The position numbers were made by a program, and so were the translations under genes. From contig JAGCWA010000057.1 in the NCBI GenBank assembly GCA_017962085.1, positions 58,903-122,902 on the forward strand: a stretch of DNA of 64,000 nucleotides, in the 5' to 3' direction. Below the pieces are notes generated by a model. That model had not been told where the DNA came from. It saw only the letters and a list, made by a program, of their open reading frames with translations, and made no database searches. Of the stretch, positions 10,404-45,800 are shown piece by piece (the first letter of the stretch is position 1; each line of letters opens with the position of its first letter). Source of the DNA: Paludibacteraceae bacterium (GTDB lineage Bacteria > Bacteroidota > Bacteroidia > Bacteroidales > Paludibacteraceae).

Positions 10404-12581
10404 ATGAAAAAGATAATCGCAACGTTAGGGTTGCTATTGTTAGGGTGGGGGACTCTTTGGAGTGTTACCCCGCATGAAGGTTGCCCTGACTTTACCGATC
10501 TTACGGCAAGTTATGTGGAGCCGTTTGCGTCAGGTGTGGGTAACCAATTGGTAGAGGGTCGTCATACTGTCATCACTGAACAGGGAACCGATCCGAGGAC
10601 AGGAAACAAGCTACGGCTGATTCCCGATGGGGTCCACAAGGTGGTGCGTTTGGGAGATGAGTTGGCGGGTAGTCAAAGTGAAAGCCTGACATATCATTTT
10701 AAGCCCACTTTGGATGCCTCTATGATAAATTTGAAATTCGCTGTGGTTTTCGAGAATCCTAATCACGGACTCAGGGAACAGCCTTATTTCTCCATATCTG
10801 TGACGGATAAAAATGGTCATCTGTTGCCGAACACATTCCAGTATGCGGTGTATGCGGATAATGGGTTGTCGGGTTTTAAGGAATACGTCGATGGAAACAC
10901 TACTGTCATGTGGCGGGATTGGACCGATGTGGTGGTGGATTTATGTTCCTATATCGGTGAAGAAGTATTGATCACATTCAAGACCCGTGATTGCTTGCAG
11001 AATGGACATTATGCCTATGCCTATCTCACGACCACATGTGCCTCTGGTGGATATATGAAGTTATTGTGTTTGGATAACAATAATGTGAATTTGTCAATGA
11101 TCGATGGTTTTGATTCTTACCATTGGAGTGATGGAACTGATTCCAAGGACTTCGAAGGAATTTTGGATCAACCTATTTGGTGCGATCTGACTTCTGTTAT
11201 TGGATTGATCACAAAGTTTTTTGTGGCGATTGCGGATGATGCGACATCGTCTATGGATGATGTCATTTATGATGAGGTGTGTGAAGGTGAAGAATATTCT
11301 TGGTTAGGCCATTCTATCGATACCAAGTTTAATGGGACCCGTAAATTTAATGGGGCTTTGGTGGAAAAGGATAGTTGTACCATTACATACAAGACATTGA
11401 TGTTGAAGACCATACCTACACGTACCGTGCTTAATGAAACCATCTGCGAAGGGGAAGATTATTTTAAGAACGGATTTAAATTCCGGAATCCGCCTGTGGG
11501 AGAATATATGGATTCCATTGAGGTGGAATCCGACACGGACTGCAAGCGTTGGAATATCTTGAAGTTGCGTGTCGTTTCGAAATCGATTTCACCTAGTATG
11601 AAGGGTGACGAAACGCCTTGTACGGATGCGTTAAGGACCTATGAAGTATCTAGCGGGTATAATTATAATTGGGTGTTGCCGGAGAATGCGGTCCTATTGG
11701 ATGGTGGTTTGACGGAAGACCGTATTGGGGTGAAGTTCACGGATGTCTCTAATGGGGTTATTTCTGCAATATGCTCCAATGGTTGTGTGTCGAAAACTGT
11801 ATCGATGCCTATTAGCCCCGTAAAAACATTTAGGACGTTCACCATTGATACGATTTGTCAAGGAACAACTTACCAAAAAAATGGATGGAACTTGGGTGTG
11901 CAGAAAAAACTTGGATACTCCACTTTCATCCGTCAGTTGGGCGATTCCTGCAACGCATCTGATGTTTTGCTGCTTTATGTGATGAAATCTCCATCTATAG
12001 GTGTTGTGACTTCTACTGATGTTGTGTGCCCTGGAGAAGAGGTACGATTAGCTGCGGTAGATAAGAATAAATATAAAAATGATTATTTGGCGATCGGAGA
12101 TGTGTGGTGTGAAGATGGAACCATTATGAAACTGAAGGATTTCTTAGTGAGCGGTAAGGTTGCGAAGGGAATTGTTTGTGACATTGCTCTCGAACCTATT
12201 GTCTTTGTGATCTCTATTGCAGATGAAAATAACGGAGATGCTGTTCCTTATGAAATTGGCACTATGGATAATAATAAAAATTTGTGGGCTTATTCCTGGT
12301 TATCTAATCTGTGCGGCAAGTGGCTCGTGTTAAATAAATATCTAGGACAGATTGGAGGCGCAGATCTGTTGGATGGGTTATACTGGCTAGGAAATAAACA
12401 TGATATGTCTTTAATTGGATTAGCTGATACTCATCGGGCTGCAATAGGTTATGATGGCGTTTCGACTAATCCTATTGAGACCAAATGCAAAATCAGGTAT
12501 ATGTATTTTGTTGAAGTGGATGAATCATCTCATATTGGGATAGATCGCACCTCCGAGCTTCATCGCACCTCTGAGTTTTAA
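10404..12581 (+). CDS. T9SS type B adhesin, N-terminal part fused to a C-type-lectin-like fragment (interrupted gene)
   Basis: This 725-residue product has a signal peptide (MKKIIATLGLLLLGWGTLWS). At about residues 50-235 is a beta-sandwich-like module also found near the N-terminus of the adhesin at 59140 (shared pattern of PYFSISV, then a Cys and GHYAYAY). Then come repeats of a short module starting TICEGE or TICQGT and ending with a conserved Cys. At about residue 540 an Ig-like domain begins (VVCPGEEVRLAAV) but stops halfway. The last 170 residues are AT-rich in codon use and start like DUF1566-type C-type-lectin-fold modules (IGDVWCEDGT). There is no C-terminal sorting domain, so on its own it would not be expected to leave by the T9SS. 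The missing half of the Ig domain and the sorting signal are in the next frame. Confidence 0.75.
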   Translation: MKKIIATLGLLLLGWGTLWSVTPHEGCPDFTDLTASYVEPFASGVGNQLVEGRHTVITEQGTDPRTGNKLRLIPDGVHKVVRLGDELAGSQSESLTYHFKPTLDASMINLKFAVVFENPNHGLREQPYFSISVTDKNGHLLPNTFQYAVYADNGLSGFKEYVDGNTTVMWRDWTDVVVDLCSYIGEEVLITFKTRDCLQNGHYAYAYLTTTCASGGYMKLLCLDNNNVNLSMIDGFDSYHWSDGTDSKDFEGILDQPIWCDLTSVIGLITKFFVAIADDATSSMDDVIYDEVCEGEEYSWLGHSIDTKFNGTRKFNGALVEKDSCTITYKTLMLKTIPTRTVLNETICEGEDYFKNGFKFRNPPVGEYMDSIEVESDTDCKRWNILKLRVVSKSISPSMKGDETPCTDALRTYEVSSGYNYNWVLPENAVLLDGGLTEDRIGVKFTDVSNGVISAICSNGCVSKTVSMPISPVKTFRTFTIDTICQGTTYQKNGWNLGVQKKLGYSTFIRQLGDSCNASDVLLLYVMKSPSIGVVTSTDVVCPGEEVRLAAVDKNKYKNDYLAIGDVWCEDGTIMKLKDFLVSGKVAKGIVCDIALEPIVFVISIADENNGDAVPYEIGTMDNNKNLWAYSWLSNLCGKWLVLNKYLGQIGGADLLDGLYWLGNKHDMSLIGLADTHRAAIGYDGVSTNPIETKCKIRYMYFVEVDESSHIGIDRTSELHRTSEF

Positions 12582-13211
12582 AAATCAAGTATTACTCTAT
12601 TCTATGTAGATACAATGAAATATATTTGCTCACTTATAATTTTGTTTTTATCATTCTCTTCGGTTCATGCATATCGGATTGGAGATGTCGTTATGACAAA
12701 GGAGGGTGATCTGGGAATCGTTTTTTATATTGACCAGGAGAAGGTTCTGTTATTATCTCCTTTTGAGAAACGAGCTAGTTTTTCTACGCAGAGTCGTATC
12801 GATGAATGTATTACTGGTAATGATTGTGATGAATCATTGCAAGTGCATTTGTTTAATGGACGTGAAAATACTAAGCGAATGAAAGAATTGGCGGAAAACT
12901 CATCCTATGTGTTTCCCGTTTTGGATAGTATTCCAACAGATAAAGGCTGGTTTATTCCTTCATTGGCTGAATTTTCTGAGATAATTGATTGCCTTTCCAG
13001 TGTGACGGGTATGATTACCGCTTTGAATGGAACCCCTTTGGAAGAATATACTTATTGGACATCGTCTCAATATGTGTCGGATGGAAGAGGAGGTATATAT
13101 GCCTATACGATTAATAGAGGAAATGATAGTTATTGGAAGTCAACACTTTTTGATATTGATTACGCTGTCCGCTATATCTATCAGATTGATTTAATGGATG
13201 AATTTACGGAT
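12063..13211 (+). other. Putative in-frame insertion of about 1.15 kb inside an adhesin gene
   Basis: Removing this segment joins VCPGEEVRLAAVD to AETNYMWNTGSTEPQIT and restores a complete Ig-like domain that aligns with the repeats of the adhesin at 59140, such as ICRGDSTNLIARGADTYVWN. Its length is a multiple of three, and a GAT codon lies at both edges. The segment is visibly more AT-rich than its flanks and encodes two partial or whole C-type-lectin-like (DUF1566-like) modules plus a signal peptide. No transposase or inverted repeat was seen. The edges are inferred from the protein alignment and may be off by several codons. Confidence 0.6.
12544..12579 (+). repeat. Two tandem 18-bp units at the end of the first adhesin frame
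   Basis: ATCGCACCTCCGAGCTTC is followed directly by ATCGCACCTCTGAGTTTT, encoding RTSELHRTSEF just before the TAA stop. The two copies differ at three positions. Confidence 0.8.
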
Positions 13212-14282
13212 GCTGAAACGAACTACATGTGGAATACAGGAAGTACGGAACCCCAAATAACGGTTTCGCCCGGTAATACAACTACTTATTCGGTTTCGGC
13301 GACAAGTAAGTTGAACGCTTGCGGGAGCACGGCTAGTACAACCATCCTTGTGGCTGGTCAATCTCAGGATATTTATGAAACTATTTGCGAAGGCGAGACC
13401 TATTCAGGCTATGGGTTTAATGCGAATACGGAGGGAACCTACACGAAAAGCATCGGGAAGGATAATTGCATGTCAGAGACTAGACTACATCTTACTGTTG
13501 CTCCAAAATACAAACAGGTATTCAATGACAATGCATGTTTAGGCCAGTATTACAACAGGCATGGTTTCTCAATGACGCCTTTCGTGAAGGGCGAGTTCCA
13601 TGATACGCTGACGTTCCTTAGTCAACTGGGTTGCGACAGTATAGTGATATTGAACTTGAATGTCAAACCGATCGCATACGATACAATCACAAGACGGATT
13701 TGCCAGAACGAGAGATATAAGGATTCCGATTTCGATATAGAGGCAAATCAGAAGCCTGGATTATCGTATTATACGGTTGAAAAGAGTCAGGAGAATGGCT
13801 GCAAGTCTTACCACACCTTAGCGCTTCAGGTTGATCCGATTTTCCAAGTCACGGTTGTGGAGGATATGAATGAGGAGGAAATCTCTTATAATCAGCGTGG
13901 CTTCAATTTGGAAAAGGTAACGCCTGGTAGTTCTTATCGTTTGGAACTGAGTGCGGACAATGGGTGTGACAGTATTGTCACGCTTTATTTCCGATCGACC
14001 TCATGGGAAGAGGGAAAGAGAGACACTGCTGCCATTAGGGACGGTAGAGTCATTCCTACCGCTTTCACTCCTCACTTTGAGGATGGTATGAATGACCACT
14101 TCATGCCAGGCTATGAGGTCTATATATATGACCGCTACGGCAATCTGATCTGCCATTCCGAGGATGGTTGGGACGGAACCTATCGTGGCAAGGTGGCTAC
14201 GGCTGGTGTCTATATCTATGTTGTGGTTATGAAGGATGGTGAGATGCGAAAAGGAACCATCGAAGTTGTAAAGTCTAAGTGA
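12615..14282 (+). CDS. T9SS type B surface protein: C-type-lectin-like domain plus the C-terminal half of the adhesin
   Basis: A 555-residue protein with its own signal peptide (MKYICSLIILFLSFSSVHA). Residues 20-195 look like a DUF1566-type C-type-lectin-like domain: IGDVVMTKEGDLGIVFYID at the start, GWFIPSLAEFSEI in the middle, YWTSSQ and YAVRYIYQI at the end. From residue 198 (AETNYMWNTGSTEP) it continues with the second half of an Ig-like domain, then three TICEGE/CDSI modules as in the previous frame. The C-terminus from about residue 479 (VIPTAFTPHFEDGMNDHF, then GNLICHSEDGWDGTYRG) is a gliding-motility-type CHU_C domain, the T9SS type B sorting signal. It lies in the same frame as the upstream ORF, separated by one TAA at 12579-12581. 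Its stop overlaps the next gene. Confidence 0.8.
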   Translation: MKYICSLIILFLSFSSVHAYRIGDVVMTKEGDLGIVFYIDQEKVLLLSPFEKRASFSTQSRIDECITGNDCDESLQVHLFNGRENTKRMKELAENSSYVFPVLDSIPTDKGWFIPSLAEFSEIIDCLSSVTGMITALNGTPLEEYTYWTSSQYVSDGRGGIYAYTINRGNDSYWKSTLFDIDYAVRYIYQIDLMDEFTDAETNYMWNTGSTEPQITVSPGNTTTYSVSATSKLNACGSTASTTILVAGQSQDIYETICEGETYSGYGFNANTEGTYTKSIGKDNCMSETRLHLTVAPKYKQVFNDNACLGQYYNRHGFSMTPFVKGEFHDTLTFLSQLGCDSIVILNLNVKPIAYDTITRRICQNERYKDSDFDIEANQKPGLSYYTVEKSQENGCKSYHTLALQVDPIFQVTVVEDMNEEEISYNQRGFNLEKVTPGSSYRLELSADNGCDSIVTLYFRSTSWEEGKRDTAAIRDGRVIPTAFTPHFEDGMNDHFMPGYEVYIYDRYGNLICHSEDGWDGTYRGKVATAGVYIYVVVMKDGEMRKGTIEVVKSK

Positions 14283-15568
14283 TGAGAAATATGAAAAAGA
14301 TAATATTCGCCTTTTGCTGCATGGCTACAATGTGTGGTTATGCGGCGGAGAGGGCTTTCCTGGATGGATACACTGTGGAGCCTTCCCGTATCAATAATGA
14401 CGAGGCTGAGTCGGGCCTCTCTTTGCTGAAGAATAAATTGGCGTTCTCCCGTGGGGGAAAGGTCTATGTGGCTACCCTCAGTGACAGTTTGGACATAAAA
14501 AGCATCATGGAACAAAGCGATTTGTCTGCTCTTGGAATAGAGGGACAGTTCGCTCAATACAACAATCAACTGGTATTCTCTTCAAAGGGTGTGCTCTATT
14601 GCGCCACACTGAAGAATAACGTGTGGGGAAATCCTGAGAAACTGATGATCGATGGATTCATGTCGACCCGTGAGCAGGAGGAGGGAACCACTTTCATTTC
14701 TCGACGTTGGACCTATAAGAAGAAACCTGCGGCCGGTATGTATAATCCTGCATTCGGTAATAAAGGCAAACGCATCTATTTCTCTTCCCAACTCGAAGGG
14801 GGAAGGGGTGGATCTGATATCTGGTACATAGAGCGCAAACCGGACAATAAGACATGGTTCGCTCCTAAAAACATGCCGGATGTCAACTCAGAAAGGAACG
14901 AGGATTTCCCGCAGTTGGTAGGCGACACGATGTTCTATTTCTCCTCCGACAGAGCGGACTCGCTCAAGGGAAGCAATATCTTCAAGAAACTGATGAAGGG
15001 GAAGAATGTACGTGCCACACAGATGGTTGCGGCCCAATTCAATAGTGATGCGAACGATAAGAATTTCGTTGTGGCTGAGAATGTTCCGTTCCTGATTTCC
15101 AATCGGGCAGGGGGCGACGATATCTATCGCCCGAACATCGTGCCTGCCCCAGAGCCAGTAGATACCACGCCAGTCGACACTACTGCACAACTGAAGGTGG
15201 TCCGCAAGGACTTCCGTACTTGCATCTTCTATTTCGAATATGACAAGACATCCATGATCGACTCATATGAGGCAGAGTTCAAATATATCTACGACTTCAT
15301 TAACGAGGACTCAACTTCTATCGTTAAGATAACCGGATATACGGATGAGCGTGGTACGGTAGACTACAACCTGACGCTCTCTAAAGAGCGTGCCAATGTA
15401 GTATTCGACAAATTGGTGAAGATGGGTGTCAACGCTAAACGTCTACGCTTCGATGGCAAAGGAAAGTCTAATCCTGTCGTGCCGAATGCCCAAACAGAGG
15501 CTGACCACCAAAAGAACCGTCGTGTGGAAATTGTAAAACTAGAGAATGATGAAAAAGATGATAAATAA
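14282..15568 (+). CDS. OmpA-family outer-membrane lipoprotein-like protein with PD40/beta-propeller repeats
   Basis: A protein of about 428 residues with a signal peptide (MKKIIFAFCCMATMCGYA). Residues about 150-285 carry PD40-type repeats, for example KRIYFSSQLEGGRGGSDIWY and GDTMFYFSSDRADS. The last 140 residues are an OmpA C-terminal peptidoglycan-binding domain with FYFEYDKTS, GYTDERGTVDYNLTLSKERA and NRRVEI. It resembles PorE-like and gliding-associated OmpA proteins that tie T9SS outer-membrane parts to the cell wall. The ATG at 14282 overlaps the adhesin stop by one base; an ATG at 14291 also fits. It overlaps the following PorP/SprF gene by 23 bases. The three genes are very likely one operon. 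Confidence 0.88.
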   Translation: MRNMKKIIFAFCCMATMCGYAAERAFLDGYTVEPSRINNDEAESGLSLLKNKLAFSRGGKVYVATLSDSLDIKSIMEQSDLSALGIEGQFAQYNNQLVFSSKGVLYCATLKNNVWGNPEKLMIDGFMSTREQEEGTTFISRRWTYKKKPAAGMYNPAFGNKGKRIYFSSQLEGGRGGSDIWYIERKPDNKTWFAPKNMPDVNSERNEDFPQLVGDTMFYFSSDRADSLKGSNIFKKLMKGKNVRATQMVAAQFNSDANDKNFVVAENVPFLISNRAGGDDIYRPNIVPAPEPVDTTPVDTTAQLKVVRKDFRTCIFYFEYDKTSMIDSYEAEFKYIYDFINEDSTSIVKITGYTDERGTVDYNLTLSKERANVVFDKLVKMGVNAKRLRFDGKGKSNPVVPNAQTEADHQKNRRVEIVKLENDEKDDK

Positions 15569-16469
15569 AAGATTTGTATTGACGCTTTGTCTCTCGTTGT
15601 TGGCGCTCTCTTCTTATGCCCAGCAAGACCTGATGTTGTCGCAGGAAATTTTTTCCCGTGTGAACAAAAATCCTGCCGCGACGGGTAATACTAATGATAT
15701 CGATATTTTCCTCCATGGACGTATCCAATGGGCGGGAGTCGATAATGGACCAAGGACTACAGTTCTAAATGTAACCAATTATTTGGAAAAACTCCATTCG
15801 GGTGTCGGTTTCACGATGTCTTACGACCATATGGGGATCGGACATAATTCCACGAACATGAAATTGGTATATTCCTATCAGATCGATTTCAGTGAGCAAT
15901 ATGTGCTTGCCATGGGTTTAGGCGCTGGCATCCATATCGGCGGTTTCGACTATACCGCTAACATAATGGACGATGCGAATGAGTATGGTTGTGACACCTA
16001 CCCATATGATAAGGAGGTACGTGTTTCCCCTGATTTCGATCTCGGTTTTGAATTAAACAATCCTATGTGGACTGTCGGAGTCTCCATGACACACCTGACC
16101 AATAAAGAGTCTACGACCTTCAAAAGCGGAAGACATTTTTATCTTTATGGGATCGGCAATTTCCTTTTAAACGAGCAATGGATTTTGGCTCCTGTCGTGA
16201 ACTATTTCCATCACAATAAGACCAATGTGTTCGAAATCGGTTCATTGGCTTATTTTAGACGCATGTATTGGGGTGGTTTGTCTTGGCGCCCTGATTTACA
16301 CGACAAAATGAACCCTTCCATGATGGTCTTTACCTTGGGCCTGGAGTGGAAGAAATTCAGGTTCGGTTATTCGTATGATCTGGGTCTAGGTTCCAACGAT
16401 TTGTTGCCTTCCAACACGCATGAGGTCATTTTGTCATATGGTATCGACAAGAAGAGAAAACAAAAATAG
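15546..16469 (+). CDS. PorP/SprF family type IX secretion outer-membrane protein
   Basis: A 307-residue beta-barrel-type protein with a signal peptide ending LLALSSYAQQ. The start of the mature part, QQDLMLSQEIFSRVNKNPA, matches the QD-x-QFSQ-x-NPA pattern of the PorP/SprF family, and GVGFTMSYDHMG and the alternating strand pattern after it agree. In Flavobacterium johnsoniae SprF is needed for secretion of the adhesin SprB, a type B cargo, so this protein is the likely partner of the adhesin encoded upstream. It starts inside the end of the OmpA-like gene and is followed by a terminator. Confidence 0.92.
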   Translation: MMKKMINKRFVLTLCLSLLALSSYAQQDLMLSQEIFSRVNKNPAATGNTNDIDIFLHGRIQWAGVDNGPRTTVLNVTNYLEKLHSGVGFTMSYDHMGIGHNSTNMKLVYSYQIDFSEQYVLAMGLGAGIHIGGFDYTANIMDDANEYGCDTYPYDKEVRVSPDFDLGFELNNPMWTVGVSMTHLTNKESTTFKSGRHFYLYGIGNFLLNEQWILAPVVNYFHHNKTNVFEIGSLAYFRRMYWGGLSWRPDLHDKMNPSMMVFTLGLEWKKFRFGYSYDLGLGSNDLLPSNTHEVILSYGIDKKRKQK

Positions 16470-28368: not shown

Positions 28369-31300
28369 ATGGTAAATCTTTATTTACGAAGGCATGGTAC
28401 GGACAGCATGCCAAAAAAACGGAGGCAGAGGCAGTGTTTGCTGACCTTGTTGATCCTCTTCTGTTCTATGTCGCCTTGGCAAGGGGCGAAGGCGTCGTAT
28501 GCGGGAACGTGTTGTGACTGCGGAACCCAGTGTTGGCAAAAATGTTACGATTCATACTCGTGGGATGCGGAGAAGGGTTGCATTCGATACGTGGTGCGCT
28601 ACTGGCAGAACTGGGGTTCAGGACATGGCGGTGACTGGTGTGGTTGGCGAGAAGATGAGGGTGGCGCTACAATTACCCAATATACCACAACGAATAAAAC
28701 CTTTAAAATTAGTTGCCAAGAAAAAGCGAAGTCCGATGGAACACATATAGTGACAAAACCGACATCCAATTGCGAGTTGAAGTGGGACAAAGGTAATACT
28801 TGCACCGAGTATTTCGCTCAATGGTATGAACCTGTTTCCACCGATGACCTTAACAAAGAAATCACGATTAATATCGAAGGCAAGTGGTGGCGTTATGGTA
28901 CTACATGGGATGACCAAACAGACTGTAAAGTTGACGCAAACAATTCTGTATATACCAAGGCTAGTGTGGGTTCTTACGAAGTTGGCGAACCTTCTTATAG
29001 TATTGTGAAAGGAACCCCAGTTATAAAAGTTCCTTGGAAATGGAATAAAAGCGGTTGTAATGTGGAAAAAGCTAATGAGTGTGGCTTGTGGTACAATGGC
29101 AGATTGCAACAAGATTTGCAGAATTTGCATAAAGGCGACCTCGTTACTGAGTCAAGTAAAGGTGACACACTCTATTTTGTCGCCGACAATGACTTTTTAA
29201 AGAAAACACATAGGTTTATCTTGCACCGTAAATACAACCCTACAGGTAATAACAACATTCATTACGAGGCAAATAGTGATGAAGTTGCCATAAAGGCTTT
29301 TGCGCAAGTTGATAATATGAGTGTGGAAGGCGATGAGAATAAAAAATTGATACATGTTGCGTTTGAAGTCCCTACGGTTTCTGGCGAAACTTACGACGAT
29401 TCGCCTTTTTCGGTAAGATTGGAAAAATTACAAACTAATGGCACATATGAGCTTATTAAAGATAGTATAGTGCAATACTCGAGTGGAACCAAACAATATA
29501 CTCTCGATTTCAATATAGGTGTTGTTGATAGTTCCACATACAAGGTAAGCGCCGCTAGGCAAAAAACGTATGACATTAAAGGATGGGATAGATACATCTT
29601 TTCGAAAGTGGTTACTATATGCACTGACCATTGTTATCCACAGAACATGAAGGTGAAAAAATCCACTACTAAAGATGGAGAAAACTGTATTGAAATATCT
29701 TGGGACCAAACTGGAAGTATCTGGACAAACGGAACGGATATGGTAATACATCGTACAAATTTGACGACTACGAGTACCAGTAATTTTAATGTAAAGAAGG
29801 AGCAATTCCACCAAGGAATGTACCAAGACGCTCTGATTCAGCAGTGTAATAATTATGTGTACGAGATAGAGTTCAAGCCAGGTAGTTCTAATTACGCTCC
29901 TAAAACGTTGAATGTGGACGAGAAGCTATCGTTTGTGAATATAGGTTCTCTAGAGTCATTGGAGGTATCGAAGGGCTATTATTCTGATAAGGTGGATTTG
30001 AGTTGGAGGTCGAATGGCGACTTCGATGAGTTTGTTGTTGAACGCCGTGAAAACGACAATCCGAACTCAAAGTATACGAAGATACTGTCAATTGGTGGTT
30101 TGAATATATCAGACTATGCTGTGGAAGACCGCTCATGCCAGCCTGGTGTGATGTATGCATACAGGGTGTATGGATTGAAAAAATGTATGGAGGATGTTTA
30201 TAATAGCAGGGATACTTTGTATGGCTATGGGTTTAGGACTCCTACTGGAAACTTCTATGGTAGAATCGCTTTTGAGAACGGCCAAGCGGAGAGTGATGTG
30301 GAGGTGCGTATGGAAAGCGACGAGAACTTTAGAACATATGCTTTGAAATTTTATGGTGCCGACACTGCAAAAACGACGACTACTACTCCTCTGAGTTCAG
30401 GATATCCGTTAACCATGCAGTTGTGGGTGAAGCCTGAAGTCTCAAGTGACGAACCTATGACACTGATAGACAAAGCCGATTACTTTAAACTACAGTTGGT
30501 TGATGGTTCCGTACGATTAAAAGTGGGTGATACTAGTGTGGTTACTGATAAAAAAATACTTAACGACTACTATACCCATGTCAGTGCGGTGGTGGATGAC
30601 GATTCGACCATTCATATTTACTTGAATGGAGATACGGCGTTGGAAGCGAAAGGTTTGAAGTTGAAGAATGCCATCAAGAATTCTGATGTGGTAGTCATCG
30701 GCGAAAACTTTAAGGGTGAAATAGACGATGTGCGTTTATGGAGCCGAGCTTTAGGCAGAGTCGAAGTGAAAAAAGACTATACTCGTTATTTGGTGGGTGA
30801 CGAAGATGCCCTCGATGCTTACTACACATTTGATTTCATGTCGGAAAACGAGTTCTACGACATTAGTCACAAGGGCTCTGTGTATAATGGGAATACAGGT
30901 GTGCTTATGGGGGCAAAGAAGGTGTATTGCACATTGAATGTAGACCAACTGGGTTACAGAGGTTATACGAACGAGGATGGACAATTTGCCATCAATGCTG
31001 TACCATATTATGGAAATGGTACTTCATATACGATAATTCCTAGGAAAGGGACTCATCAGTTCATGCCGAAACAGGAAGTCCGTTTTGTCAGTGGCGATGC
31101 ACAGAGCCACACGATAAACTTCACGGATAATAGTTCTTTCCCTCTCACGGGTTTTGTCTATTATAGCGGAGGTACTTATCCTGTGGAGGGCGTTTCGTTC
31201 ACTATTGATGGTGTGCCTGCTCTTGACAAGTCGGGACAGTACGTCATGACGTCCGAAATTGGAAAATTCACCATTAATGTTCCTGTTGGTATCCATGAGG

Positions 31301-34300
31301 TAAGGGCAGTGAAACCCGGACATACTTTCGAAATGGAAGGCCGCGTATGCAATGTCGATGGGTCAGACCGTAACTATCAGGATGAGGATGTCGCAACCCT
31401 GTATGACAATACAAAAGTGAAATACATAGGACGTGTATGTGGTGGTGAGGTGCAAGAAGGGTATCCTGTCGGTTTTTCCCTTTCAAAGAACAACTTGGCA
31501 GATGATATGAAAGTGATATTGTCGGCAACGCAATCCGTGTACGACTTGCAGTCAAATGCTCATTCCGATACTATAAACCATCCGGTTCTCAAACACATTT
31601 CGGGAAAAGAAGGAAAGATGTCGACGGGGAAAACCGTGTGTGATTACAATCGTGATAATATCACAATTCACGTGGACAATGAGACTGGTGAGTTCATCGC
31701 ATGGGTATATCCTATCGAGTATAAAGTCGGTTTAAGTGTTTATGGGCATAAAGACATTGCAGGAGACAATTCGGCACTTGACCTTTCAAAGTATGTGCCA
31801 TCCCAATATGAGACCTACACATATGTCGACACGATTGTAAATGGTACGGAAACAAGATATCCTCAATATACGGATACGATCGATTATCGTCAAAAACAGG
31901 TGTTCACCAAACGTTATCGAGCAAAAATGGTGGTGTCTCAGTCTAGTAATGACATGGATCTGGAATTCTTCGGGGATAGATCCTATACCTATGTTTCTGC
32001 GACTGGCGATCAATACCCGACATCCTTGTATGTTGATTCAACCAAGACATATACATTTGGTCTCCCTGTGTTTATAATGAATAAGGACTATCAATTCCAC
32101 TATTCAATCTTTGAGGAGTACCCGTATTATATTGACAACAACATGCATGTCGACGAGAATAGGATTGACCGTGTGATGATTTCCGGGGCGGAGGTGTCGT
32201 TCAATAATAAGTTTGCTTACAGTGAGAAAATAGATACTGTGAAACAGTTATATTCCTTTAAGGTGAACGAGCCTGACATGACAACTGCCAAGGGTACGGT
32301 TTCCGCGACATTCACGTATGGTGATAGTGATAATCCTACTAGTGTGTCATGGGATAACCCTATGGGGAATCCTAACGGAGAGGCCTATGTGTTTGGTTCA
32401 CATCAAACTGGCACCGACTTTATCACGGGTGGACCTGACAAATTGTTATGTGTGCTTCGTGACCCTCCGGGATCCAATAGTTACTCATATCTGGAGAAGG
32501 GAACTTCTTTCACTCAGTCATCCACCTACTCTGGTTCGTTCAACCACGAAGGAAGCGAGATGTGGACAACCGGGTATAAGTTGGAAGCGATGACAATCAA
32601 TACTGCGAATACTCCGGCTAGTTCGACGGGTACAATAAACACTCTTTTTGAAACAAATAGTGGCATTAAGGCTGGTATTGTCCAGGAAGCGGAGTATACT
32701 GGTTCAAATTCCAAATCCAACAATATTACCCTTACAACACGTATCCAAACAAGTGACGATCCTATGTACGTCGGTGCGGATGCGGATCTTTATGTGGGTT
32801 ATTCAACAAACATATCTTTCGGATCGACCCAAAATGTCACATCGATTCCGATCGCTCTGTATGATAGCATGGGAGGAGCCCAATATTTCGAAACGTTATA
32901 TGCAAAAGCCGATTCTTATGCTATCGTAAAGACGAAAGGTATCAGCTCTTTGGAGAACTTCGCTACGATGTTCGCATATCCTCAAATATATATTGAGCAG
33001 ACACTCCTGCCGAATCTGAAAGATTTGAAGAGTTCATTGATCCTGCCAATGTCGGAGGCTAAGGACGATTCGATAATGCAAGCGCTTGCGGAATCGAAGA
33101 AAGAAAATATATATGTTTCTAAAGTGTCTTTGTCGGATCCTAGTTTTGGAGAGGAAGGCTCGTACAAAACATATTTCTTTGACAACCGTCATTGTGATAC
33201 GATTCATTACATAAATCAATCCATCAAGCGTTGGGAAGATGTAATGAGTGACAACGACCAAATAAAGATTGAGACGAAAAACAAGGGAGAGGTGCTTCAG
33301 AACTACTCTTTCCAAGCGGGGGCAAACATCGAATATGGGGAATCATATTCTTCCGCACTTTCCTCTTCTCATTCTTTCAGTATCAAATTGGGAGTCGAAG
33401 TCAGTGACGATAACAAGGCAACGACTGCAGGAACCTATGTCTTGTTTGAATTTGATGAGACGTTTACGACCACACAGGGAGGTGAATTCTCCAGTGAGGC
33501 GGAAGCCTCCCATTCCAAAGGTTTTGTTTTGGCGGAGGATGGTGACGACGATTATCTGAGTGTCGACGTCTATCGTGAGATGCTGGTGGATGAAGTATCT
33601 GTCATCTATGATCCTGATTCTGTTGATTTCGATGAATCATACGTTAATTGGGTCAATGCTGGAACTGCAGATACAACTAAGTTGACAAAGAAAGACTATT
33701 ATCCGACATTCGTGTTTGTCACCCGTGGTGGTGCGACCAGTTGTCCTTACGAGGGCGCCTATGCGGCGAAGCATTGGAAAGGACATAAAACAGAGGTTAT
33801 TAACGTTGCTACAATGAAGTTGGAGGAGCCTTCTATCGATATGCCTAAGAAGTTCATCGAGAATGTTCCTTCCGGCGAGGATGCTTATTTGACGGTTTAT
33901 ATGAAGAATAACTCCGAGACGGGAGAAGACCAATGGTTCGACCTCCGTCTTGTGGATGCTTCTAATCCGAATGGTGCTATCCCTAGTATCGATGGCAATT
34001 CCATGTCTGGTTTCGCTCTCGAGTATCTGGTGCCTGCAGGTCAGGTGTTGGAGAAGACATTGGCTATCACGAAGGGGTCCGTGTTGAATTACGACAACTT
34101 GGCATTGGCTCTTTGCTCTAAGTGCCAGGCTGATCCGACAGGTTTCTTGGATGTGATCGCTGATACGGTTTATTTCTCTGTCCACTTCATCCCTTCCTGC
34201 TCGGATGTGGCTATCGTTAAACCAAGCAACAATTGGACGTACAACACCAATTGTGCGGTCGACACGATCGACGGGGTGGCTAAGCATTATATGCCGATAA

Positions 34301-37300
34301 CAATCTCTGACTTTGATGTCAACTATACTGACTTCGATCATATCGAGTTGCAGTATAAGCCTGCTTCAGGTTCGGATAACGATTGGGTGACTTTGGGGTA
34401 TTATTACAAAGATAGCACACTGGCTAATAGTGCCGTGGCTAATGGATTCAATGCCTTCACCATCTCATCTGAAGATGCTGGTAATATCTATTACAATTTC
34501 TTCATGGATAACCTTCCTGACCAGAATTACGATCTGCGTGCGGTTTCATTCTGTAATATCAACAATGAGTTGTATGAAAATCCTTCCGAAGTGGTTTCGG
34601 GTATCAAGGATATGTACAATCCTCGTCTGTTCGGTTCTCCTAGACCTGCGAATGGTGTGTTGACAATCGATGACGATATCCGAATCGACTTCAACGAGAC
34701 CATAGCGGAGGGAATGTTGACCGTCAATAGCTTTGAGATTACGGGTGTACGTAACGGTGTGGTTTCTGACCATAGCGTGGCTATCGCCTTGGATGGTGAG
34801 AACGATTACCTCACGACAGAGGTTACTCGCAACTTCGCCAACAAGGACTTGACCTTCGAGTGTTGGGTGAACTACGATTCTTTGCAAAACGCGACATTCT
34901 TCAGCCATGGTGATGCAACGGAGTCTATTTCCATGGGCATGAACAAGGAGGGTAAGATTGTCGTCAAGGTTGGCAACAAGGTACTCGTTTCGGAGAGTGT
35001 TCCTGCATGGGAGAAATCTTCTTGGAACCATGTCGCTTTGGTCTATAACAATGAGAATAAGACCGTGACTGCTTATGTGAACTACATGCCTGTTATTAAT
35101 TCAGTTAATGTTGAGGCTTACAAGGGTGACGGTGTCATTGAAGTGGGTAGGAATGTAGCCTCTGCTAACGGCTACTTTAATGGTAAGGTGGATCAATTCC
35201 GTATCTGGAATTCGGTTCGTTCTTCTGCTACTATCCAAGCCAATTGCACGTCACAGCTCTCTGGTAATGACCTGAATTTGATGGCTTACTATGAGATGGA
35301 AGAGGCGAAGGGTGCCGCTACGGAAGATAAGGCTCGCGGCGCTAATTTGTTGATGAAGGGTGGTTCTTGGGCATTGCCTGAGGGACGTTCGGCTGAATTC
35401 AATGGTCAAAGTTACGTTGCCATGAATAGTTCGTCGGCTGTCATCACTTCGGATATGGACTTCACCCTTGAGTTCTGGTTCAATGCTGAATCTGAAGCAA
35501 AGGGTCAGACCTTAATCTCCAATGGTACAGGTTTGGCTTCGGATGCCGAAGACGCTACTAAACTATTTAGCGTCGGTTTTGACCCAACGGGTGCGTTGAC
35601 ATTCCGTCACAATGGTTACGTGACGCCTTTGGAGGGAGACTTCTCCGACAATAACTGGCATAACTTCACCCTTGCGGTGAGTCGTTCTTCTGGCGTCGCC
35701 CGTATCTATGTGGATGGTGAGTTGAACACTTACTTCTCTGCTGATAAGATTGGTGGCATTGCTTCTGATAAGTTGTTCGCTGGCGCGTGTGTATATTATG
35801 TTGCAAACGACTCGACAACTGTTGCGAAGCAGAGAAAAGCTGATCAGTATTTCTCGGGTAGAATTGATGAGGTGAGACTCTGGAATCTCTATCGTCAACA
35901 ATCTCAGGTGGAGAACTTCTACAACCAGAAATCGAATGGCGACGAGATGGGCTTGCTGCTCTACTATCCGTTCGAACACTACGTTGAATGGCAGGGTACG
36001 TCACAGATGCAGTTCACATTGGAGGATAAGGGAAATGACGCATTGGATGGCAATGGCAAGAAGTTGGCGTTCGCGACGATGCAAGGCGTAGTTTCCGAGT
36101 CCCGAAATATACCTCCGGTTAAAACGAAGGGCGCGACTTCTTCATTGTTGTTTGACTGGGTGGTTAACGACGATGCGTTGATTATCAACTTGCAAGAGCA
36201 AGATTACCGTGTTGAGAAGACCATTGTCAACTTCACGGTGAAGGGCGTGCAGGATTTGAACGGAAACTACATTGTTTCCCCGATCACGTGGAGCGCTTAC
36301 ATCGACCGCAACCAGTTGAAGTGGATGGATGACGCTGTGACTGTCAACAAGAAGCAAAACGAGCCGTACAAGTTCGAGATGCCGATTGTGAACAAGGGTG
36401 GTTCCGTCATCAACTACAGTCTGAAGAACATGCCTGCTTGGTTGAGCGCCTCTTCCGAGTCGGGTGCCATCAATCCGTTGGAGAAGCAGACCATCGAGTT
36501 CGAGATCGATCCATCACTTGCTGTCGGCACGTACGACGAGGTGGTTTACTTGACGAACTCCAATAACGTGACTGAACCTCTCGCCCTCAATGTGACGGTG
36601 GAGGGTGACACCCCTGATTGGAGCGTTGATCCTTCGAAGTATGAATTCAGCATGGCTGTATTCGCTCAAATCAAGTTGGACAACCAATTCTCCAACGATG
36701 AGAGAGATATGCTTGCGGCCTTCTATAAAGGCAAGTGTGTCGGTGTGGCTAACATGAGCTATGACAAGACCATGGATTTGTGGTATGCAATGTTGACAGT
36801 TTATTGCGACACCACAAAATACAATGGTTTGGTTTATCGCGCATGGGACGCTAGCAAGGGCATCATGTCGGAGGCGGTTTCTTCTCCTGTGGTGTCGTTC
36901 GAGGCAGACACGGTTTACGGAAAACCTACCGCACCGGTGGTGTTCTATAACGGAACCACTAAGTATCAGAACATTCCGCTGAGCAAGGGCTGGAACTGGG
37001 TTTCATTCAACCTTGAGAACAAAGCGGGCATGGCAGACTTGAACACTTATCTCAATAGTGGAAAATGGGGCTTGAACAGTATTGTGAAGGACTTGAGCGG
37101 TCATTCCGCAAACTATTCCGCAGTGAGTGGAAAGTGGTTGAATGATAGTCTTGTGTTGAACAACACGAACATGTTCAAGATCTATTCTGACGAGAATCAG
37201 GTGTTGTCTGTCGCCGGTTCGGGTATCAATCTTGACTCAATGATGATTCCTGTGAAGGCAGGTTCTTGGAACTACATCGCTTATTTGCCTACTGGTAGCA

Positions 37301-38064
37301 TGACGTTGAAAACCGCATTGGCTGGATATGAGGCAAAAGATGGTGATGTCATCAAGTCGAATGAAGGATTCGCCATGTACTATGGCAACGAGTGGATCGG
37401 TTCCCTCAACAGCTTGCAACCTAATTGCGGTTATATGCTGAAAAACACGGGCAATGTCCAAAAGACGTTCAAGTATCCTTCCTCTTCTTCCGCTTTGCGT
37501 TCCGCTGTTTCAGTGGAGTCTTCCGCTTACGAGTCTAACATGAGCATCATTGCTTCTGCCCCTGAAAAGAGGGAGGGCGACCTCCTTCGCACACTTGTGG
37601 GAACAGAGGAGAACAAGATTGTGGAGGTCGCTTTGTCGGATGACTATGCGCTCCAGTTCATCAATGTTTCGGCGAAGGCGGGTGACAAGGTGCGTTTCAC
37701 GATGGAACGTGACGGAGTCACTTATGAGGCGAACAACGCTTTGACCTTCACGGGTGATGCGATATATGGTACGCCAGACCATCCATTCGTGTTGAACTTC
37801 AACGTGGGTGGGGTAGAGACGTTGACCGTATATCCAAATCCTATGGATGTCGAGTTGAACGTTGCAGGCAAGCTGGACGGCGAAGGTGATGTGACGCTTG
37901 AACTCTTCGATGTGCTGGGCGTGCTTGTCTTTGAGAAGCAAGTCTCCGCATCGGATAATGTTCTGGACGAAAGCATCAACGTGTCAGGCTTGGTTCCTGG
38001 CTCATATATGCTGAAGGTTAGCCAAGGCGATGAGTCTAAAGTGTTTAAAGTTGTAAAGAAGTAA
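28369..38064 (+). CDS. Giant multidomain surface protein with LamG domains and T9SS type A sorting domain
   Basis: A 3231-residue secreted protein. A basic, long signal region (KKRRQRQCLLTLLILFCSM) precedes a Cys- and Trp-rich N-terminus. FN3-like domains occur at about residues 425-610, a LamG/concanavalin-like domain at 655-805, and a carboxypeptidase-regulatory-like strand domain near 920-1000 (LTGFVYYSGGTYPVEGVSF). A long Ser/Thr-rich beta region spans 1250-1800. Two more LamG domains are at about 2135-2310 and 2340-2530, each with the W-x-H-x-AL/DEVRLW-type motifs. A module with DMLAAFYKGKCVGVANM lies at 2757-2860, then two GWNWVSFN-type repeats. The end from about 3149 (LTVYPNPMDVELNV) is a type A sorting domain. 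A start at 28408 is also possible. The product is probably an adhesin or glycan-binding surface protein. Confidence 0.88.
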   Translation: MVNLYLRRHGTDSMPKKRRQRQCLLTLLILFCSMSPWQGAKASYAGTCCDCGTQCWQKCYDSYSWDAEKGCIRYVVRYWQNWGSGHGGDWCGWREDEGGATITQYTTTNKTFKISCQEKAKSDGTHIVTKPTSNCELKWDKGNTCTEYFAQWYEPVSTDDLNKEITINIEGKWWRYGTTWDDQTDCKVDANNSVYTKASVGSYEVGEPSYSIVKGTPVIKVPWKWNKSGCNVEKANECGLWYNGRLQQDLQNLHKGDLVTESSKGDTLYFVADNDFLKKTHRFILHRKYNPTGNNNIHYEANSDEVAIKAFAQVDNMSVEGDENKKLIHVAFEVPTVSGETYDDSPFSVRLEKLQTNGTYELIKDSIVQYSSGTKQYTLDFNIGVVDSSTYKVSAARQKTYDIKGWDRYIFSKVVTICTDHCYPQNMKVKKSTTKDGENCIEISWDQTGSIWTNGTDMVIHRTNLTTTSTSNFNVKKEQFHQGMYQDALIQQCNNYVYEIEFKPGSSNYAPKTLNVDEKLSFVNIGSLESLEVSKGYYSDKVDLSWRSNGDFDEFVVERRENDNPNSKYTKILSIGGLNISDYAVEDRSCQPGVMYAYRVYGLKKCMEDVYNSRDTLYGYGFRTPTGNFYGRIAFENGQAESDVEVRMESDENFRTYALKFYGADTAKTTTTTPLSSGYPLTMQLWVKPEVSSDEPMTLIDKADYFKLQLVDGSVRLKVGDTSVVTDKKILNDYYTHVSAVVDDDSTIHIYLNGDTALEAKGLKLKNAIKNSDVVVIGENFKGEIDDVRLWSRALGRVEVKKDYTRYLVGDEDALDAYYTFDFMSENEFYDISHKGSVYNGNTGVLMGAKKVYCTLNVDQLGYRGYTNEDGQFAINAVPYYGNGTSYTIIPRKGTHQFMPKQEVRFVSGDAQSHTINFTDNSSFPLTGFVYYSGGTYPVEGVSFTIDGVPALDKSGQYVMTSEIGKFTINVPVGIHEVRAVKPGHTFEMEGRVCNVDGSDRNYQDEDVATLYDNTKVKYIGRVCGGEVQEGYPVGFSLSKNNLADDMKVILSATQSVYDLQSNAHSDTINHPVLKHISGKEGKMSTGKTVCDYNRDNITIHVDNETGEFIAWVYPIEYKVGLSVYGHKDIAGDNSALDLSKYVPSQYETYTYVDTIVNGTETRYPQYTDTIDYRQKQVFTKRYRAKMVVSQSSNDMDLEFFGDRSYTYVSATGDQYPTSLYVDSTKTYTFGLPVFIMNKDYQFHYSIFEEYPYYIDNNMHVDENRIDRVMISGAEVSFNNKFAYSEKIDTVKQLYSFKVNEPDMTTAKGTVSATFTYGDSDNPTSVSWDNPMGNPNGEAYVFGSHQTGTDFITGGPDKLLCVLRDPPGSNSYSYLEKGTSFTQSSTYSGSFNHEGSEMWTTGYKLEAMTINTANTPASSTGTINTLFETNSGIKAGIVQEAEYTGSNSKSNNITLTTRIQTSDDPMYVGADADLYVGYSTNISFGSTQNVTSIPIALYDSMGGAQYFETLYAKADSYAIVKTKGISSLENFATMFAYPQIYIEQTLLPNLKDLKSSLILPMSEAKDDSIMQALAESKKENIYVSKVSLSDPSFGEEGSYKTYFFDNRHCDTIHYINQSIKRWEDVMSDNDQIKIETKNKGEVLQNYSFQAGANIEYGESYSSALSSSHSFSIKLGVEVSDDNKATTAGTYVLFEFDETFTTTQGGEFSSEAEASHSKGFVLAEDGDDDYLSVDVYREMLVDEVSVIYDPDSVDFDESYVNWVNAGTADTTKLTKKDYYPTFVFVTRGGATSCPYEGAYAAKHWKGHKTEVINVATMKLEEPSIDMPKKFIENVPSGEDAYLTVYMKNNSETGEDQWFDLRLVDASNPNGAIPSIDGNSMSGFALEYLVPAGQVLEKTLAITKGSVLNYDNLALALCSKCQADPTGFLDVIADTVYFSVHFIPSCSDVAIVKPSNNWTYNTNCAVDTIDGVAKHYMPITISDFDVNYTDFDHIELQYKPASGSDNDWVTLGYYYKDSTLANSAVANGFNAFTISSEDAGNIYYNFFMDNLPDQNYDLRAVSFCNINNELYENPSEVVSGIKDMYNPRLFGSPRPANGVLTIDDDIRIDFNETIAEGMLTVNSFEITGVRNGVVSDHSVAIALDGENDYLTTEVTRNFANKDLTFECWVNYDSLQNATFFSHGDATESISMGMNKEGKIVVKVGNKVLVSESVPAWEKSSWNHVALVYNNENKTVTAYVNYMPVINSVNVEAYKGDGVIEVGRNVASANGYFNGKVDQFRIWNSVRSSATIQANCTSQLSGNDLNLMAYYEMEEAKGAATEDKARGANLLMKGGSWALPEGRSAEFNGQSYVAMNSSSAVITSDMDFTLEFWFNAESEAKGQTLISNGTGLASDAEDATKLFSVGFDPTGALTFRHNGYVTPLEGDFSDNNWHNFTLAVSRSSGVARIYVDGELNTYFSADKIGGIASDKLFAGACVYYVANDSTTVAKQRKADQYFSGRIDEVRLWNLYRQQSQVENFYNQKSNGDEMGLLLYYPFEHYVEWQGTSQMQFTLEDKGNDALDGNGKKLAFATMQGVVSESRNIPPVKTKGATSSLLFDWVVNDDALIINLQEQDYRVEKTIVNFTVKGVQDLNGNYIVSPITWSAYIDRNQLKWMDDAVTVNKKQNEPYKFEMPIVNKGGSVINYSLKNMPAWLSASSESGAINPLEKQTIEFEIDPSLAVGTYDEVVYLTNSNNVTEPLALNVTVEGDTPDWSVDPSKYEFSMAVFAQIKLDNQFSNDERDMLAAFYKGKCVGVANMSYDKTMDLWYAMLTVYCDTTKYNGLVYRAWDASKGIMSEAVSSPVVSFEADTVYGKPTAPVVFYNGTTKYQNIPLSKGWNWVSFNLENKAGMADLNTYLNSGKWGLNSIVKDLSGHSANYSAVSGKWLNDSLVLNNTNMFKIYSDENQVLSVAGSGINLDSMMIPVKAGSWNYIAYLPTGSMTLKTALAGYEAKDGDVIKSNEGFAMYYGNEWIGSLNSLQPNCGYMLKNTGNVQKTFKYPSSSSALRSAVSVESSAYESNMSIIASAPEKREGDLLRTLVGTEENKIVEVALSDDYALQFINVSAKAGDKVRFTMERDGVTYEANNALTFTGDAIYGTPDHPFVLNFNVGGVETLTVYPNPMDVELNVAGKLDGEGDVTLELFDVLGVLVFEKQVSASDNVLDESINVSGLVPGSYMLKVSQGDESKVFKVVKK

Positions 38065-42826: not shown

Positions 42827-45800
42827 ATGAAAAGATTTGTAGGTGTATTGGTTTTTCTGTCTTATTGTTTAGGGTCCTTTCCTCAGAATGATTGTCCGTT
42901 AGGGGATTGGGATGATGTTGTTGTTTTCTGTACGGATGAAAATGACTTAGGTATAAAATATCCCGCCTCAAGGCACTCCTCTGAAGACTTTTGTTTTTTC
43001 TCGGACTTGTATCGGGCGTTAATGGATTCGGCGGATTTCTCGACAGATTTAACTTTCCACTCTCTTTCGGGTGTGGTTGGATGTCTTGGGGGGGATTGTA
43101 TTGTCACGCCGAGATGGTTGCTAATGCAGGTTGAGGAGTCCGGTGATTTGACGTTGGAGTTGACTCACTCGATGAATAGCGATGTGGACTATGCGTGTTG
43201 GGGTCCTTTCTGGGGAGATACTAAAAACGATGTTCTGCAGTCCATATGTGAGGATCCTGTCAATTCACTAAGTTTCATACCTCAATATAGGTTATTGACT
43301 CTAGATGACATGGAAGCTTGCCCACGTTTGTATGAATTGACGACTTCCCATAGTAGAAATATCATAGATGAAATGCTAACGCAGGTGGATAACCCCTGTT
43401 TCCGAGGCAATTTCGATCAATATCCTTATTTGCAATTGCAGGATTGCTCGTTCTCATACCAATACACGGAGATATGTCGTATCGAACAGGCGGTGAAAGG
43501 TGGCTGGTATCTGTTCTTGGTGTCGAATTATGGTAGGATGATGGGTGATATTACCATTCGGAAGTTGGGCGGGTCTGCGATTGTGAGTTGTAAGGTGATT
43601 GTTGATATATCCAATTCGGGACCTTATTGTGAGGGTGATGACATTCATCTCAAGGTGCTTAATGCACCTCAGAATGCAACTTTTTCGTGGATCGGACCGA
43701 ATGGTTTTAGTTCAACGGAGAAAGAACCTGTTATCCCTAATTCAACGGTTGAGAATGCGGGAGTCTATTCCCTTCAGATGGTAGCCAATGGCGTGGCTTC
43801 CGATGTTGTGGAGACGAATGTGATTGTTCGTCCATCCGTTGCTGTGGATACTACCATTATGTTAGATTATGGAGATTCGTATCAGTATGGCGATTCTGTA
43901 TATACGGAAACAGGGGTGCATACGGAGATTGACGCTTCAAATCCATGCGGCGTGAAAAATGTTCATTTGTTTTTCTCAACCCCTGAATTACACCTCCATT
44001 CAAATTCACCGATATGTGAGGGGGAAGTCTTGGTTTTGTCCGCCGAGCAGATTCCTGACGCTCAATATGATTGGATAGTTCCTTCCGGGCAACGGTTACA
44101 GAATCAGTCGCATGAGTTGTCTTTGCCTAACGTTGGAGCCTCTGATGGTGGCTCCTTCCAATTGGATTTAATCATTCATGCTGATACGTTCTCCTATCAA
44201 ACCGTAGTGGATGTGCATAAGAAACAAGTGATTACGAAAAGCATGTCGGTTGTTGTCGGTGACTCTGTTGAATTCGATGGGAAAATACTTCGCCAGGCGG
44301 GAGATTATCAGGGCGTTTTCCTAGGCCAGAATGGATGTGATAGTGTGGTTCTCCTCCATCTGGATTATTATCTTCCGGAGATAACCCTTGTTACAAATTC
44401 TCCTGTATGTGAAGGTGAGGCGTTACGTTTTTCCGTGAAATCTGCCGAGCAGATTCCCGACGCACAATATGATTGGGTAGTTCCTTCCGGGCAGCGTTTA
44501 CAGAATCAGTCGCAAGAGTGGGTTTTGCCTGACGTTGAAGCTTCCGATGGCGGTTCCTACCAATTGGATTTGATCATTCAGTCAGATACGCTCTCTTATC
44601 AAACCGAAGTGGAGGTGCATAAGAAACAAGAGGTTGTGAAAGACACGTTAGTCGTTGCCGGTGATTCTGTCGAATTCGCAGGGAAGATACTTCGCCAAGC
44701 AGGAGATTATCAGGGCGTTTTCCAAGGTCAGAATGGATGTGACAGTGTGGTCACCCTTCACTTGGATTATTATCTCCCGGAGATAACCCTTGTTACGAAT
44801 GCTCCGGTGTGTGAAGGTGAGGCGTTACGTTTTTCCGTGAAGTCTGCCGAGCAGATTCCCGACGCACAATATGATTGGGTAGTTCCTTCCGGGCAACGTT
44901 TGCAGAATCAGTCGCAGGAGTGGGTTTTGCCTGACGTTGAAGCTTCCGATGGTGGCTCCTACCAATTGGATTTGATTATTCAATCAGATACGTTCTCCTA
45001 TCAAACCGTAGTGGATGTGCGTAAGAAACAAGTGGTTACGAAAGACACATCGGTCGTTGCCGGTGATTCTGTCGAATTCGCAGGGAAGATACTTCGTCAG
45101 GCGGGAGATTATCAGGGCGTTTTCCAAGGCCAGAATGGCTGTGACAGTGTGGTTACCCTTCACTTGGATTATTATCTCCCGAAGATAACCCTTGTCACAA
45201 ATGCTCCGGTTTGTGAGGGTGGGGCGTTACATGTTTCCGCGGATCAAGATTTTTATGCGGATGATGTTTCGTGGTCGGGTCCGAATGGTTTTGTTTCTCA
45301 TGAAAAAACATTGGATATTCCTTCTGCGACACTTCAAAATAGTGGGCAATATAAGTTGACCATCACATGCCTCCCAAATTTGGTTTCCGAAGCCACGATT
45401 GATGTACAGGTGTTGGAAAAACCTTCGATTGTATTGTACGATACCATTATGTTCGGGGAACAATATGAGTTTGATGGGCGTTCGTTGCAGGAAGATGGTG
45501 AATATATGAGCTTGACGACTTCTCAGCATGGCTGTGACAGTGTCACGAGGCTGATGTTGAAGGTTGTCGCTGATTCATCTCTTGCGGTCTCGTATGATCC
45601 ATATTATTGCTATGGCAGTTCTTTTTCCGTGAGTGTGGTTGATCCGCAGGAGTTCACAGAGTATAGTTGGACGGGTCCGAACCATTTTTCCGCAGCGGGC
45701 GCTTCCATCCGTATAGAAAACGCTAAGGAGGAGGATGGTGGCATATACGTTGTGACGAAAAAACAACGTGGTGAGGTCTTCTCTAAATCTCTTTCAATTA

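Follow-up and report, generated by a model that had tools for sequence, protein, structure and literature searches.

Why would the gene for a secreted adhesin stop partway through an immunoglobulin (Ig)-like domain, with the rest of that domain encoded by the next gene? The question arises from a 64,000-nucleotide stretch of a Paludibacteraceae bacterium genome (NCBI GenBank assembly GCA_017962085.1, contig JAGCWA010000057.1, positions 58,903 to 122,902 of the forward strand; here called the window). Two consecutive plus-strand genes, encoding proteins A (10404..12581) and B (12615..14282), each hold one part of an Ig-like domain, and a segment of 1,152 nucleotides (nt) (12060-13211; 3 × 384) lies between the parts. 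A first-pass annotation, made from the letters of the window, had read this segment as a domain cassette that moved into a single adhesin gene of the type IX secretion system (T9SS). Our analysis suggests a different answer: the junction is probably a heteromeric connector, at which the Ig domain reassembles between consecutive proteins, and the members that lack a C-terminal sorting domain (CTD) hitch-hike out on the tagged last one.

The coordinates and joints of the segment given by the first-pass annotation hold, as does its view that the flanking parts have their counterpart in a single, longer type of adhesin. Protein A (725 aa), the donor, consists of a signal peptide, an N-terminal module, PKD/Ig-like repeats, a half Ig-like domain (GVVTSTDVVCPGEEVRLAAVD; 12000..12062; predicted strands A-B) and, at its C-terminal end, a first Lcl_C-like domain (Lcl1; 12063..12578), which was recognized by alignment and hidden Markov model (HMM) matches and is diverged and shortened in the window lineage. 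The acceptor, protein B (555 aa in one open reading frame [ORF]), follows in the same frame after one TAA stop and a 33-nt gap (12579..12614). It starts with a signal peptide (MKYICSLIILFLSFSSVHA; 12615..12671; read from the sequence and a simple hydrophobic-core test) and continues with a second Lcl_C-like domain (Lcl2; 12672..13211), a half Ig-like domain beginning with AETNYMWNTGSTEPQITV (13212..13352; predicted strands C-G) and a T9SS type B sorting domain (14055..14267; TIGR04131, E = 9e-10). Lcl2 aligns lengthwise with its homologues, and its match to PF07603 (E = 0.024; 15.4 bits) is under the gathering cutoff of 34.9. The segment between the Ig halves holds two Lcl_C-like domains, which are of the C-type lectin kind, the second one behind its own signal peptide, a point that the first-pass annotation had not noticed. 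The C-terminal sorting domain (type A or B) that marks T9SS cargo is present in B and absent from A, to which the NCBIfam models gave no match. Both A and B are under purifying selection, and neither looks like debris: the dN/dS values are 0.17 to 0.40 for A and 0.15 to 0.28 for B in comparisons with G015, G001, and G002 (synonymous changes are close to saturation relative to G009 and G007).

The same arrangement recurs in other genomes. Matches were found in 18 of 393 Bacteroidales genomes (E = 1e-15), in 21 of 250 genomes of the organism's own family, and in 36 of 104 genomes of a second family (both at E = 1e-25). A search of 395 genomes of the class at E = 1e-25 returned the own genome only, which suggests that the connector in its strict form is uncommon beyond the two densely sampled families. 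From the matches to protein B or to a profile of Lcl2 plus Ig strands C-G, 65 stretches were picked by hand, not every match being fetched (6, 18, and 40 in successive selections, plus the window). The junction is present in 52 of these stretches, giving 75 junctions in 38 genomes that are spread over four families. For 75 of the 76 split acceptors the donor lies directly upstream; for the 76th it lies 1.9 kb upstream, past a retroelement. The gap from donor to acceptor start has a median of 18 nt, and all 75 acceptors carry a hydrophobic, signal-peptide-like core ahead of Lcl2 (simple test). At 58 of the 75 junctions, the donor and its match to the Lcl1 model end no more than 2 residues apart, while the remaining 17 donors, including that of the window, have diverged or shortened Lcl1 ends.

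We examined the Ig halves with an HMM built from seven intact Ig repeats of another adhesin in the window (59140-63795). The A and B halves of the window cover adjoining parts of this model (positions 8 to 26 and 24 to 65, respectively), which bears out the earlier claim that one Ig-like domain is split between the two proteins. Of the 75 junctions, 68 entered the test (three without a recognized Lcl1 start motif, one without a half Ig, and three duplicates were left out). At all 68, the A half matched the first part and the B half the second part of the model: the A halves spanned positions 8 to 23 (medians) with none extending past 30, the B halves spanned positions 24 to 65 with none starting before 15, and the two met within a median of 1 model position. 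The A halves scored above the 95th percentile of their own shuffles in 67 of 68 cases. In profile-profile comparisons with the intact repeats, the A half alone aligned to template positions 2 to 26 and the B half alone to positions 22 to 67, while the joined halves aligned to positions 2 to 67 of 67 (E = 3.9e-16); joined in reversed order, they aligned to the second part only (22 to 67).

The junctions also link longer series of genes. We found 55 runs, 46 of two ORFs and 9 of three to eight ORFs, with broken-looking ORFs of locus L139 kept as found (a single frameshifted-looking L139 chain accounts for three of the two-ORF runs). The longest chains occur in G1073 (8 ORFs), G1072 (6), G252 (5), and G1039 (4), and 22 ORFs carry parts of a connector at each end. 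In the G252 chain, for example, the middle proteins are about 520 aa long and consist of a signal peptide, Lcl2, Ig strands C-G, a repeat, Ig strands A-B, and Lcl1. We searched the last 130 residues with NCBIfam models for sorting domains (a pattern check was dropped, as it missed known ones). None of the 75 donors has a sorting domain. Among the 55 runs, 46 end in a protein that could be tested in this way, 8 run off the edge of their stretch, and 1 (L144) has Lcl1 at its end. A sorting domain was detected in 43 of the 46 chain-terminal proteins (42 of type B and 1 of type A). Judged from their sequences, the three misses are two short, frameshifted-looking L139 ORFs and the abruptly ending L174; locus L173 (G1077), which is identical to L174 in Lcl2 and Ig strands C-G, ends in sorting-domain-like sequence.

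At the sequence level, then, we find complementary halves, adjacent genes in order, acceptors that start like signal peptides, a single sorting domain in each complete chain, and fused counterparts. On this basis we propose the following mechanism. The C terminus of the donor would offer Ig strands A-B and Lcl1, and the N terminus of the next protein Lcl2 and Ig strands C-G. Both proteins would enter the periplasm via Sec, the Ig domain would fold over the two chains, its B-C loop bearing both lectin domains, and the resulting assembly would exit through the T9SS on the sorting domain of the last member. In the window the product would be a two-link adhesin; in other Bacteroidales it would have up to eight links, with a lectin pair at each joint, and the single-gene homologues would represent the same connector in fused form. 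More tentatively, such chains may constitute a new class of surface appendage, assembled in the order of the genes. Up to eight different proteins would be joined head to tail via cognate split Ig/lectin connectors, a single T9SS signal on the last member would take the chain across the outer membrane, and the lectin pair shown at each joint would be open to diversification (by a retroelement in one case).

Strict gene order speaks against a first alternative, namely, that the halves pair promiscuously or between cells and yield branched or mixed polymers rather than gene-order chains. Within a chain, the donors are paralogs of one another, as are the acceptors (mean p-distances over 21 triples of 0.51 for donors and 0.45 for acceptors), which is in keeping with such pairing, yet we consider it unlikely. 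Among 185 cross-locus pairs of middle proteins, the 3 pairs with donor distances of ≤0.30 are exactly the 3 with next-gene acceptor distances of ≤0.30. The own acceptors of these pairs have diverged (0.35 to 0.42), and the donors have diverged (0.42 to 0.45) in the 3 pairs whose own acceptors are close (≤0.30). The two ends of one protein were co-inherited in none of these 6 close pairs, a small set that was defined by a threshold chosen post hoc and to which linkage over the short gene gap may contribute. Since the close pairs are one-sided, exchange breaks seem to fall within the proteins and to spare the joint.

Several observations, in addition to the small number of close pairs, weigh against a connector that joins neighbors. 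Over the 21 triples, donor distances correlate no better with those of the next acceptor than with those of the own acceptor (Spearman coefficients of 0.351 and 0.344). The per-sequence gain from joining the halves is modest: of the 68 joined pairs, 49 scored higher than their B half by itself (median, +1.7 bits) and 57 higher than a shuffled A half plus the B half (median, +3.2 bits), and a single-domain alignment over most of the Ig model was obtained for only 24. Pfam Ig_7 (PF19081) matched two of three joined sequences over its full length (E = 0.002 and 0.022; 18.8 and 15.5 bits). These scores are below the gathering cutoff of 27.3, whereas the local Ig model agrees strongly. None of four halves tested singly matched Ig_7, nor did the joined halves of the window, which gave instead a subthreshold full-length match to PKD. 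AlphaFold modeling of the window junction, read through the TAA with an alignment of six rows (from L077-L080), was uninformative (predicted local distance difference test score, 28.5), probably because of shallow sequence depth; a scan of viral contigs for further rows gave 18 pattern matches with no relative among them. The Lcl1 of the window lacks much of the region around the GWYLP motif of its homologues, and the comparison with G001 shows faster evolution of Lcl2 (dN/dS = 0.61). The last ORF of L144 ends in Lcl1 without a half Ig, and no acceptor was seen after it in a stretch that has masked bases. Lastly, Lcl1 rather than Lcl2 may face a ligand, because the C terminus of one donor's Lcl1 looks diversified (see below).

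Some of these points, i.e., the uninformative structure model, the modest gain on joining, and the overall distance correlation, are what might be expected if A and B were independent proteins whose half Igs are relics that pack on their own lectin domain and stay unpaired between chains. We regard such independence as rather improbable; against it stand the complementary parts kept at every junction tested, the repeated chains, and the donors' uniform lack of a sorting domain. It also sits poorly with the outcome of a reciprocal test in the second family (many of these loci are also among the 65 stretches). Of the 30 best donor loci, 27 carry the half Ig; an acceptor then follows in 26, and in the 27th only 135 nt remain before the contig end. 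The three donors without a half Ig are not followed by an acceptor ORF, and one of them has both lectin domains in one ORF. The presence of the half Ig thus predicts the downstream partner (26 of 26 testable loci versus 0 of 3).

Two features of the segment favor the cassette proposed by the first-pass annotation: its length is a multiple of 3, and its G+C content (36.9%) does differ from that of the left (43.9%) and right (45.2%) flanks. The GAT found at both edges is a single codon and is uninformative. Close matches to both A and B (57 to 100% identity) are present in 6 of the 15 congeneric genomes searched, and all 6 pairs, which we term orthologues by similarity and not by neighboring genes, have the two-frame form; the other 9 genomes have no comparable match to the A/B pair. 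The records of the relatives include Paludibacteraceae from yak omasum and water buffalo rumen and two Bacteroidales assemblies. The uninterrupted allele that had been predicted, with AAVD and AETNY joined, was not seen in the relatives searched. All five single-gene homologues that we analyzed keep both Lcl domains in place within one Ig domain, with the Lcl block within about 2 points of the G+C content of its flanks, and the AT-richness of the segment is therefore not general. Given also the two-gene form at 75 junctions in four families, the segment is no recent cassette, and recent insertion is very improbable.

Frames of 1,367 to 1,402 aa, the length of the fused, single-gene type, are listed in 14 of the 16 genomes of the genus, including the own genome, in which a single ORF of 1,369 aa, two genes away from one that resembles a CCA tRNA nucleotidyltransferase gene, holds a half Ig, Lcl1, Lcl2, a half Ig, and a C-terminal sorting-like region. 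The split form makes up 76 of 81 acceptor rows, a count that reflects our choice of stretches. The fused forms need three changes on an acceptor tree with weak central support, which is compatible with either fission or fusion. Read-through of the stop codon into one long protein, which the shared frame and single TAA of the window pair might suggest, is hardly worth entertaining, since the acceptor starts out of the donor frame at 39 of the 75 junctions (in frame at 36) and each acceptor begins with a signal-peptide-like core.

The lectin-type domains of the connector vary in their likeness to PF07603, with scores of 30.9 bits for a member of the G252 chain (below the cutoff) and 47 bits for a member of the G1073 chain (above it). 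In locus L139 (G1052:C41), a diversity-generating retroelement (DGR; minus strand, approximately 14300-16180) separates the first donor from the acceptor that comes next. It comprises an Avd-like ORF (bAvd, 88.4 bits), a reverse transcriptase (RT; PF00078), and a template repeat. Over 80 nt, 14 of the 18 mismatches between the template repeat and the repeat at the donor C terminus fall at template adenines, and the C terminus of this donor's Lcl1 looks diversified by the DGR. We rejected the idea that DGRs generally cause the split: only one case yielded a template repeat, in a scan within the same stretch that covered the true C terminus where the Lcl1 model reached it (58 of the 75 donors, the Lcl1 end of the window being outside), and RT matches occur in 7 of 28 genomes. 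The own genome (G000) gave no RT match at E = 1e-6, which speaks against the window genes as DGR targets.

Related domain arrangements were seen at further loci. Locus L062 (G155:C62) and donor frames of approximately 1,440 to 1,650 aa make up another class of long donors, more diverged than the first, that end in a half Ig and Lcl1; the long donor of L062 is followed by an acceptor. L063:3542-7210 and L064:6137-11142 are Lcl1-Lcl2 tandems that lack an Ig half at Lcl1, encoded by a single ORF in G235 and by two in G219, and are possible ancestors or derivatives of the connector. In L066:315-1184 (G252:C4), an Lcl1-type domain follows zinc-ribbon-like CxxC motifs; with no evident signal peptide, this protein is perhaps cytoplasmic, and a similar ORF seems to come next. 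L065:3866-5086 and L069:6533-9317 have a single C-terminal Lcl domain behind a conserved N-terminal domain (KKVAILETVDKKG); the two genomes have similar sets of genes at these loci.

The direct neighbors of the A/B pair are rho, a gene for a PD40/OmpA protein that in part resembles the PorE family (14279..15568), and a gene for a T9SS membrane protein of the PorP/SprF family (15546..16469; TIGR03519, E = 6.1e-49), all of those with coordinates being on the plus strand. More very large, probably secreted proteins are encoded in the window at 28369-38064, 42827-47032, 48072-51809, and 59140-63795.

Among known systems, the closest principle is donor-strand complementation, in which a neighbor completes an incomplete Ig-like fold to build a linear fiber, as described in passages of PMC4789730 for chaperone-usher fimbriae and as proposed there for fimbriae of Porphyromonas gingivalis. 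Here, the halves are complementary and would pair. However, instead of a single donated beta-strand, the donor would contribute a half Ig from its C terminus (median length, about 16 model positions) together with a lectin domain; the predicted cut separates strand B from strand C and has one lectin domain on either side; and the subunits are large, multidomain proteins encoded by separate genes in chain order, with a T9SS sorting domain on the last one only. No chaperone or usher gene is among the direct neighbors in the window (no genome-wide usher search was made). Because the single donated strand and these neighbors are lacking, we liken the connector to donor-strand complementation and do not class it as a member. 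It resembles T9SS adhesins with a type B sorting domain and a PorP/SprF partner, given the TIGR04131 match of B and the PorP/SprF gene nearby, but differs from them in that its donors have no sorting domain. DUF1566/Lcl_C lectin-type domains are known from Legionella Lcl and, according to portions of PMC4159848, from DGR variable proteins and BACOVA_04982 (4EPS). A sequence match to 4eps was obtained, and one donor resembles DGR variable proteins in looking like a DGR target; in the connector, by contrast, two such domains follow one another within a loop of an Ig domain, one on each side of a gene boundary. Engineered tag/catcher systems likewise use a domain split in two that reassembles and joins proteins, there with isopeptide or ester bonds (PMC5487036, in excerpt); the split here is natural.

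Export on a partner's signal also has precedents. Tat (twin-arginine translocation) hitch-hikers and peroxisomal piggybacking proteins lack their own targeting signal and are carried by that of a partner (PMC9251779, in part), although at another membrane and by another machine than the putative coexport through the T9SS. T9SS substrates have been proposed to exit CTD first, and a signal sequence-mCherry fusion without a CTD has served as the control in T9SS secretion assays (both from sections of PMC10994853). No passage on CTD-less or hitch-hiking cargo was found by a term search of a T9SS effector review (PMC10202324), and no description of a split-Ig connector was found in the open full-text literature, a search that left subscription papers mostly uncovered.

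If the halves pair as we propose, T9SS export need not demand a sorting domain on each cargo, and scans for T9SS substrates that are based on the CTD overlook the upstream members of such chains. The connector would then be a natural, genetically ordered linkage of multiple proteins by split Ig domains and a possible source of orthogonal connectors. For the organisms themselves, it would account for the tandem adhesin operons of uncultured Bacteroidales.

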